From Aliarcobacter thereius LMG 24486 (GTDB lineage Bacteria > Campylobacterota > Campylobacteria > Campylobacterales > Arcobacteraceae), in assembly GCF_004214815.1 (NCBI RefSeq), contig NZ_CP035926.1, positions 1,426,001-1,490,000 on the forward strand: a DNA stretch of 64,000 nt, read 5' to 3'. The position numbers and the translations under genes are program-made. The notes beneath the pieces were generated by a model. That model did not search any database. It was given only the letters and a program-made list of their open reading frames with translations, and had not been told where the DNA came from. This document shows positions 2,712 to 4,999 of the stretch, in pieces. Within the stretch, counting starts at the first letter, position 1, and each line of letters begins with the position of its first letter.

Positions 2712-2739
2712 TAAAAGTTGAGAATTAACTCAACTTTTA
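2712..2739. terminator. bidirectional terminator hairpin
   Basis: Inverted repeat with 11-base arms (TAAAAGTTGAG / CTCAACTTTTA) and a 6-base loop, with T-rich flanks on both sides. It lies between the converging agmatinase-family and leuA-like genes and runs into the leuA stop. Confidence 0.75.
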
Positions 2740-4037
2740 TTTTGAAACTTCTTATATAGTTCTATTATTTCATCTTTTTCTAACTCTCTTTTTAATCTAT
2801 CTGATCTATTCTTAATCACATTAGCAAACTTTATAGTTTCATCTTTGTTCATATTGATCCCAAAAAATTCACTTATTATAAAACTAATTCCACCTTTTCC
2901 AGATTGTGAGTTTATTCTAATAATATTTTCATACCCTCTTTTGATATCTTTTGGATCTATTAATAAATACGGTACATTCCAAATTTTACTTTCACTTTGT
3001 CTATAAAAATCTATCCCTTTTTTAATAGCATCTTGATGTCCACCACTAAAAGCTGTAAATATCATATCTCCAACATAAGGATGCCTTTGATCTACTTTAA
3101 AGTTTGTTTTCTCTTCATACATAGCTTTTACTTCATCAATTATTGATAAGTCTAATTTAGGATCAATTCCTTCTGAATAAATATTAAAAGCAAAATTTAT
3201 AATATCTAAGTTTCCTGCTCGTTCACCATTTCCAAATAAAGTTCCTTCAACCTTATTTGCTCCTGCAAGAACAGCTAACTCTGCACTTGCAACAGATGTT
3301 CCTCTATCATTATGTGGATGAACACTTACAATTAAAGCTTCTCTATATTTTAAATGCTTACACATATACTCTATTCTATCTGCATATACATTTGGAGTAC
3401 AAGCTTCTAAAGTATTTGGTAAATTTATTATCATCTTTTTTTGTTTTGTTGGTTTTACAACATTTATAACTTCATTACATATTTTTATAGCAAAATCCAA
3501 ATTCGTTTGAGAAAAACTCTCTGGTGAATATTGATAAATAACATTTCCTTCAAAATCTTTTGTAAGTTCAAGTAAATACTTCATAGAATCAACTGCCATT
3601 TGGATTATTTCTTCATCACTTTTTTGAAAAACGACTCTTCTTTGAAACTCATTTGTTGGATTATATAAGTGAAAAATACCATTTTTTACACCTTTCATAG
3701 CTTCAACACTCTTTTTTATAAGCTCTTTTTTTGCTGGAACTAAAACTTGAATAGCTACATCTGAAGGAATTAAATTTTCTTCTATTAATTTTCTTGTAAA
3801 ATTAAAATCTGTATCACTAGCACTTGGAAAACTAACCTCTATTTGTTTAAAACCTATTCTCACTAAATAAGCAAAATATTCTAATTTTTGCTCAACAGTT
3901 AAAGGATTTATCAAAGCTTGATTTCCATCTCTTAAATCTACACTACAATAAATTGGTGCTTTTTCTATACTTTTATCTGCCCATTCTCTTTGAAAGTTTT
4001 CAATTTTAGGGTATTTCTTATATTTTGTAAAACTCAT
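2730..4037 (-). CDS. leuA: 2-isopropylmalate synthase-like enzyme without regulatory domain
   Basis: A 435-residue HMGL-fold acyltransferase of the type-2 LeuA group (Corynebacterium/yeast type), which condenses acetyl-CoA with 2-oxoisovalerate in leucine synthesis. Motifs seen: CSVDLRDGNQAL (catalytic Arg-Asp), ASDTDFNFTR, the metal-binding SVHPHNDRGT and GNGERAGNLD. Type-2 LeuA proteins usually run to about 550-600 residues with a C-terminal leucine-binding LeuA_dimer domain. Here the protein ends after the linker helices, so that feedback domain appears absent. It is not obviously cut by a frameshift, because the stop lies in a terminator shared with the next gene. Another condensation (for example a homologous 2-oxoacid substrate) is possible. 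A short leader ORF precedes it. Confidence 0.78.
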   Translation of the reverse strand: MSFTKYKKYPKIENFQREWADKSIEKAPIYCSVDLRDGNQALINPLTVEQKLEYFAYLVRIGFKQIEVSFPSASDTDFNFTRKLIEENLIPSDVAIQVLVPAKKELIKKSVEAMKGVKNGIFHLYNPTNEFQRRVVFQKSDEEIIQMAVDSMKYLLELTKDFEGNVIYQYSPESFSQTNLDFAIKICNEVINVVKPTKQKKMIINLPNTLEACTPNVYADRIEYMCKHLKYREALIVSVHPHNDRGTSVASAELAVLAGANKVEGTLFGNGERAGNLDIINFAFNIYSEGIDPKLDLSIIDEVKAMYEEKTNFKVDQRHPYVGDMIFTAFSGGHQDAIKKGIDFYRQSESKIWNVPYLLIDPKDIKRGYENIIRINSQSGKGGISFIISEFFGINMNKDETIKFANVIKNRSDRLKRELEKDEIIELYKKFQNKS

Positions 4038-4092
4038 AAGTTTTCCTTTTGTTATATTTTTATTTTGTAAATTATTTTGATTGATTGAAGAT

Positions 4093-4149
4093 TTAGAAGA
4101 GAAAGAGAATAGAAAAAGAGATAAAAGTTTTTGTAATATTTACACTCAT
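4093..4149 (-). CDS. putative leader peptide upstream of leuA
   Basis: An 18-codon ORF (MSVNITKTFISFSILFLF) with a strong Shine-Dalgarno, AGGAG, 6 bases before its ATG. It lies on the same transcript as leuA and starts shortly after a TATAAT promoter. Its last codons include two CTC leucine codons, which look uncommon in this AT-rich genome, plus a final TTC. That is the look of an amino-acid-sensing leader, though I find no terminator/antiterminator hairpin between it and leuA. It could alternatively be a meaningless short ORF. No function is proven. Confidence 0.45.
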   Translation of the reverse strand: MSVNITKTFISFSILFLF

Positions 4150-4176
4150 AACAAACTCCTATTTTTAATTTTCTTA

Positions 4177-4182
4177 ATTATA
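4177..4182 (-). promoter_or_regulatory. -10 element of leader-leuA transcript
   Basis: TATAAT on the minus strand, 28 bases upstream of the leader ORF start, preceded by a T-run. Transcription from here would include the leader ORF and leuA. Confidence 0.5.
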
Positions 4183-4219
4183 ACTTTTTAAAAAAATTAA
4201 ATCTTGTACAAAATTAACA

Positions 4220-4999
4220 TTATTTAAAAATATTATTTTGATACTCTTTTGGTGTAATCTGGAAAATTCTTTTAAAACTTCTATTTAAATGACTTTGATC
4301 GAAAAATCCACTATTTTGAGCAACTTCAATAATAGGTTTATTTAAAGATATTAAATCTTTTGCTAGATGTACTTTTTTATTTAAAATATATGAGTGAATT
4401 GGAAGTCCAAACTCTTTTTTAAATACTCGTATTAAATGAACTACACTTAGTTTAAACTCTTTTGCTAAATCATTTAATATAAACTCTTCAAGATAGTTTT
4501 CATCTAAATGTTTTTTAATATTTAAAGCCAATCTTGACTCTTCTTGGAAGTTTTTTATCTTTTGTTCAAATGAAAAGAATGATAAACAAAATATATAAAA
4601 ACTTTCTTCTTTTTCTATTAAAGAAACTTTTTTATCAAGTAAACAATCACATAATTTAATAAAATTTTTATAAATGTTTTTCTGATTTATTAGTTCATAA
4701 GATGAAAAAAAGTTAAAATCTATCTTTTTTAAATACTATTTTTCTAAATACAAAACATATCCATCTTTTGATTCTTTATTTAGTGTTGCACAATGTGGAA
4801 TTTGACTATTTATAATAGCTATTTCGTTTGGTTTTAGTTCACAAGAAGTATCATTGAAAATAAGATTTAGTGAGCCTTTTTTTATTGCAGTTATTGTAAG
4901 TTCTTCGTGTAAATGCATCTTTACACAATTTTCGATATCTTTTACATATCTTAATTCTAAAAAATTTAGTTTTGAATTTTTAAATATTCCTGATTTCAT
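4220..4999 (-). pseudogene. AraC-family regulator interrupted by one TAG codon
   Basis: Read through, this is a 260-codon AraC-type protein. It has an N-terminal cupin-like sensing domain (residues 1-87, with LNFLELRYVKD, MHLHEE and PNEIAIINSQIPH) and a C-terminal two-helix-turn-helix DNA-binding domain (last 100 residues: LAKEFKLSVVHLIRVFKKEFG, and VAQNSGFFDQSHLNRSFKR). The only lesion is an in-frame TAG at 4736-4738. The region between that stop and the second half is open and codes plausible protein (YLKKIDFNFFSSYELINQ and on). The ATG directly follows the sodB terminator, has no Shine-Dalgarno, and an in-frame stop precedes it. The gene therefore looks recently inactivated, unless the TAG is a sequencing error or is read through. 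Confidence 0.8.

Follow-up and report, generated by a model that had tools for sequence, protein, structure and literature searches.

The enterobacterial leu attenuator (leuL; Rfam Leu_leader) consists of a leader peptide with rare Leu codons located before leuA. Leader control can also be Rho-dependent, as in E. coli tnaC, where free tryptophan is sensed through the nascent peptide. In Campylobacter jejuni a leader peptide termed LeuL, with 28 aa and 5 rare Leu codons, was proposed before leuABCD, and the sections of that report used here describe a LeuL RNA that ends shortly after the stop codon and place LeuL in most Epsilonproteobacteria genomes with leucine genes, the comparison covering 40 other genomes, 3 of them of Arcobacter (PMC3847290, 2013). 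Start-site ribosome signals at C. jejuni LeuL were subsequently reported by Ribo-seq, and in the sections of that study used here tBLASTn generally detected leuL only in C. jejuni or related Campylobacter (PMC11955535, 2025). For Actinobacteria, excerpts of a further report describe a LEU element before leuA in which, within a pseudoknot, the Leu run is base-paired to the Shine-Dalgarno sequence of leuA, mention leaders of cys operons without obvious terminators, and recount that mutations in a Streptomyces leuA leader did not behave as attenuation predicts (PMC1262725, 2005).

We analyzed a leuA locus of Aliarcobacter thereius LMG 24486 within a window of 64,000 nucleotides, meaning the whole stretch of DNA that was studied. 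The initial annotation had described a TATAAT promoter, an AGGAG site and an 18-residue ORF with two CTC codons before leuA, and all of these elements were located on the minus strand. Read along this strand, the order is AraC-family gene, box, TATAAT, AGGAG, 18-codon ORF, 55-nt spacer and leuA, with the following features:

2712..2739, minus strand: terminator-like hairpin at the end of leuA
2730..4037, minus strand: accessory leuA, 435 aa, PRK03739 type, with HMGL-like and IPMS_D2 domains and no LeuA_dimer allosteric domain
4038..4092, minus strand: leader-leuA spacer, 55 nt, G-poor and A-rich, no terminator found
4044..4048, minus strand: leuA Shine-Dalgarno sequence AAGGA, assigned by eye
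4093..4149, minus strand: leader ORF of 18 codons, MSVNITKTFISFSILFLF, a reduced LeuL (ATG at 4149, TAA ending at 4093)
4101-4099, minus strand: codon 17, CTC; Leu in 16/17 alignable leaders of the genus, Phe in G006
4107-4105, minus strand: codon 15, CTC; Leu in 17/17 alignable leaders of the genus, encoded by CTC, CTT or CTA
4160-4156, minus strand: Shine-Dalgarno sequence AGGAG of the leader
4182-4177, minus strand: -10 box TATAAT; a -10-like hexamer is also present in relatives
4197..4217, minus strand: near-palindromic box TTAATTTTGTACAAGATTTAA, a likely operator
4220..4999, minus strand: gene of an AraC-family regulator; an in-frame TAG at 4736-4738 interrupts it

The earlier observation that no terminator hairpin precedes leuA held as well, with two scans of the window agreeing that there is no intrinsic terminator between the leader ORF and leuA. 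Rfam yielded 0 matches at gathering score in the window, and the sub-threshold matches between 3900 and 4400 were two unrelated ones (E 0.1 and 1.8). When ribosome-site-led ORFs of 12-50 codons were collected from both strands of the 64 kb, the leader ORF was the sole candidate with at least two CTC codons in its last eight codons among 67 start/stop combinations, some of them nested; dinucleotide shuffles (n = 20) contained 0.1 such ORFs on average. CTC was the rarest Leu codon in the window: in the 49 ORFs with 150 codons or more, it accounted for 6 of the 1701 codons for Leu. Both Leu codons of the window leader are CTC and thus rare in the genome, as is expected of a LeuL. The eight longest tRNA candidates lay in seven stretches, in which ARAGORN identified one gene each for tRNA-Leu with anticodons GAG, TAG, TAA and CAA; since all four were found as single copies, the GAG gene does not stand out by copy number.

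Examination of the downstream gene revealed a match to PRK03739 2-isopropylmalate synthase over positions 2-431 of 550. The canonical LeuA, encoded elsewhere in the same genome, comprises 517 aa and contains LeuA_dimer; because this allosteric domain is missing from the window protein, the window leuA is an accessory copy. Accessory leuA was identified in 43 of the 104 family genomes searched and was split in one of them (G025). A profile search of contigs with a 10-protein LeuA alignment returned 593 loci, the best 80 of which were mostly from other phyla; the top match among these best 80 was an Aliarcobacter MAG (83%).

The 5' regions of all 43 orthologous loci were read, with a ribosome site as a condition of the leader scan. 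Many of the leaders identified in this way had 20-33 aa with 3-8 Leu, and a few had 15, 17, 18 or 19 aa; the window leader was classed as a reduced LeuL because it has 18 aa with only two, non-adjacent Leu. In the initial annotation, the leader reading was to be given up if close relatives did not share the ORF or its CTC codons. We found a leader upstream of accessory leuA in 37 of the 43 family loci, with CTC as its commonest Leu codon (CTC 82, CTT 25, TTA 17, CTA 16 and CTG 10 of 150 in total), and these results support its interpretation as a leucine leader peptide. In contrast, CTC was used for 0 of 1287 Leu codons in the 43 orthologous leuA genes; this difference, together with the low count in the window ORFs, argues that the leader did not arise by chance.

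Accessory leuA was present in 22 genomes of the window's genus, 18 of which carried a leader. Seventeen of these leaders align (G019 was left out), and changes in them were counted by parsimony on the leuA tree. In codons 9-17, this analysis revealed 10 silent changes and 9 replacements, compared with 1 and 19, respectively, in codons 2-8 (Fisher P = 0.0012, for a codon 8/9 boundary that was picked after seeing the data and for 17 related rows with few sites). Within codons 9-17, 10 of 19 changes were silent, compared with an expected quarter (P = 0.009). The last ten codons of the 17 leaders consisted of 54% T, 33% C and <2% G, and other C-ending codons were over-used there (TTC 31/54, ATC 6/8, TGC 8/8), TCC (0/31) being an exception. 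Nucleotide-level pressure may therefore add to the Leu signal, and this T/C-rich, G-poor composition with its C-ending non-Leu codons could be taken to mean that the ORF is a chance one or that a pyrimidine tract is kept as nucleic acid and not as peptide. We consider this very improbable given that the silent changes are frame-specific, that CTC is favored among the Leu codons, and that leaders of relatives run to 20-33 codons with 5-8 Leu.

Leaders were also examined outside the family, in 14 loci taken from 298 genomes drawn from the class and chosen for a match that ends at 432-516 of 550, short of the C-terminal end of the profile. Eleven of these outgroup loci belonged to one genus of f10 and 3 were second copies in f7; the loci of G278, G286 and G374 lay within open frames of ~700 codons. 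All 14 possessed a leader, with 5-8 Leu codons. The f10 leaders contained runs of Val and Leu (for example NASLVVVLLLKLR) and thus may sense two branched-chain amino acids. Among the f10-genus leaders of PRK03739-type leuA (L075-L085), LVVVLLLKLR and similar runs were observed.

A hairpin followed by U-rich sequence was identified in 14/14 outgroup loci, with scores of at least 15.9. For four of these hairpins, 40 shuffled sequences each were scored: no shuffle attained the score of three of them, and 3 shuffles attained that of the fourth. The family loci without an AraC gene (n = 3, two of them close sisters) displayed a weaker hairpin (13.8-16.2), and the two that were tested were reached by 0/40 shuffles each, though shuffles came close. 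Among the leader-bearing AraC loci (n = 34), 30 scored zero, two scored <4 and two scored 12, a value attained by 2 shuffles out of 40 in one case and by 8 in the other. A score of at least 12, a threshold set afterwards, was observed in 14/14 outgroup loci, 3/3 family loci without AraC and 2/34 leader-bearing AraC loci, an association between terminator absence and AraC that is confounded by shared ancestry. Judged from sequence, the leader of accessory leuA has been reduced: it is shorter, has fewer Leu, and has mostly lost the terminator where the AraC gene and box lie upstream. Of the overall interpretation given initially, the leucine leader peptide was upheld, and the accompanying argument that absence of a terminator calls for another mechanism applies to the window copy and to 30/34 leader-bearing AraC loci.

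An AraC-type gene was detected upstream by protein motif in 40/43 loci. The in-frame TAG of the window gene may reflect a pseudogene, a sequencing error or recoding; in the other 39 loci, the frame was open in 38 (249-283 codons) and comprised 139 codons in G025. The AraC helix-turn-helix was present in the protein of a relative. The box was found with at most 4 mismatches in 39/40 AraC-bearing loci, with G056 carrying a variant copy (TTAATTTTGTGCAAG...), and was absent, within the ~700-1000 nt examined, in the 3 family loci without AraC and in 14/14 outgroup loci. The distance from the start of the box to the -10-like hexamer was 35 nt in 38/40 AraC-bearing loci. Assuming a transcription start 7 nt after the -10 hexamer, the box is centered near -40 and would therefore be positioned as for an activator that touches polymerase. 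Across genera the box was almost invariant, kept a constant spacing to the -10 and occurred only where an AraC gene was upstream. A genome search allowing at most 3 mismatches returned 16 matches compared with 1 for the reversed control, and only the leuA site was exact. A wider box regulon was considered and dropped: of the four other matches examined (of 15), two were inside listed ORFs and two were coding-like by eye.

The leader was missing in five loci (G004, G023, G025, G028 and G055), where the box starts 67-74 nt from leuA, and G081 has ATA where ATG aligns, although translation could still begin at an ATG further along the same frame. These six losses of the leader or its start were scattered over the leuA tree (42 of the 43 loci, G025 being left out), and the AraC motif and box were retained in all six. 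The leader is thus dispensable, and the pattern of loss, with AraC motif and box kept each time and no terminator at most AraC loci that still have a leader, is what would be seen if the ORF were a decaying relic. This is the main rival explanation, in which an attenuator remnant, maybe still translated, no longer provides useful regulation of leuA, has passed its job to the AraC-type regulator and is being lost. The surplus of silent substitutions across codons 9-17, the invariance of Leu at codon 15 and the retention of CTC despite its near-zero background all argue against it, and we regard a relic as unlikely.

We consider it probable that the ORF is translated and acts as a leucine leader peptide, namely a second and reduced LeuL that reports leucine supply to the accessory leuA. 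Conservation, codon bias, silent excess, terminator absence and the association with box and AraC gene are legible in the sequence; from them we infer translation, pausing, the direction of regulation and an output through Rho or RNase. Under this reading, scarcity of leucyl-tRNA would cause the ribosome to pause at the CTC codons, which would be read by tRNA-Leu(GAG). In the outgroups the pause probably kept the intrinsic terminator from forming, and in the lineage with AraC gene and box the terminator would have been mostly lost and the leader shrunk. A ribosome paused on the window leader most likely shields pyrimidine-rich, G-poor RNA from Rho or nucleases, so that leuA would stay expressed, and promoter control through the box would act in addition to the leader. 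A rho gene is present in the genome. The C-minus-G excess of the leader end plus spacer was modest, being reached by 7.8% of 78-nt stretches of the window (G006, G029 and G080 were left out of the C-minus-G table), and therefore lends little weight to the use of Rho.

A paused ribosome could also act at the level of translation, if the CTC stretch of the leader paired with the leuA Shine-Dalgarno sequence and pausing freed the site, a model put forward for the actinobacterial LEU element. When 15 sequences were folded, minimum-energy folds of some (G060, G067 and G049) did show base pairing between the end of the leader and the Shine-Dalgarno sequence of leuA. However, across 37 loci the native leader/Shine-Dalgarno duplexes were weaker than swapped ones (mean -5.5 compared with -6.0 kcal/mol), 99.6% of 5000 permutations were at least as strong as the native pairs, and the leuA Shine-Dalgarno sequence of the window was mostly unpaired (0.66). 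Sequestration of the Shine-Dalgarno sequence by the CTC run was rejected as the main mechanism on account of the weaker native pairs, and we give translational control of this kind very little credence.

The canonical leuA of the same genome is preceded by its own, longer LeuL, MKIFNISQNNFIQSANSLLLLKLL (L216, G000:C1:410000-411200), so that the genome holds two leucine leaders, one before each leuA. A leader was found at canonical leuA in 39 of 41 genomes examined (of the 43); at the two exceptions, the gene start was not located (G031) or no leader was seen (G045). The Leu codons of the canonical leaders were CTT 86, CTC 60, CTG 27, CTA 16 and TTA 6 (195 in total). The same hairpin scan revealed no strong terminators at the 10 canonical LeuLs tested (scores 0-7.7). 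Terminator absence is therefore not tied to the AraC locus alone, and these scores count against a simple take-over by AraC. A TATAAT was present between the canonical leader and leuA in 37/39 genomes, following a T-tract and an A-tract by eye; it resembles a further promoter, located 3' of the leader.

A broader scenario, which we put forward tentatively, is that a single attenuator is seen at several stages of dismantling. Outgroup loci would retain leader and terminator; most AraC-bearing loci would have a leader without a terminator, with Leu codons under selection and the sensor still working through another output (Rho or mRNA decay); in some species the leader would be deleted; and an AraC-type gene with a fixed-position operator would stand alongside. 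The natural series of leader plus terminator, leader alone and neither makes the role of a terminator-less leader peptide testable. The arrangement also suggests that, for an isopropylmalate synthase that lacks the allosteric domain, control by leucine is exerted on expression instead.

No description of the reduced accessory leader was found in a search of the Arcobacter leader-peptide and leuA literature, with supplements outside its scope and PMC3847290 alone relevant by title. The window leader resembles the enterobacterial leu attenuator in its rare Leu codons before leuA and differs from it in the absence of an intrinsic terminator and of an Rfam match above threshold. Like tnaC, it is a leader ORF without an intrinsic terminator at which ribosome stalling could mask a site of Rho loading, the use of Rho being putative here; unlike tnaC, which senses free tryptophan via the nascent peptide, it would read leucine supply at CTC codons. 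With the actinobacterial LEU element, as described in the excerpts used, it shares a Leu-rich leader peptide before leuA, but pairing of the Leu run with the Shine-Dalgarno sequence, the one property by which the two were compared, was not supported across 37 loci. The closest likeness is to C. jejuni LeuL as described in the sections used: a short ORF with a ribosome site directly before leuA and genome-rare Leu codons (CUA, CUC, CUG) at the C-terminal end. In contrast to the 28 aa, 5 Leu and leuABCD of that system, the window leader has 18 aa and 2 Leu, precedes an accessory leuA and has no terminator that could be found. Taken together, the kind of leader, LeuL, is already known; what is new is its position before an accessory leuA without the leucine-binding domain, in a genome that has a separate, longer LeuL at its canonical leuA, and the reduction of the accessory leader.
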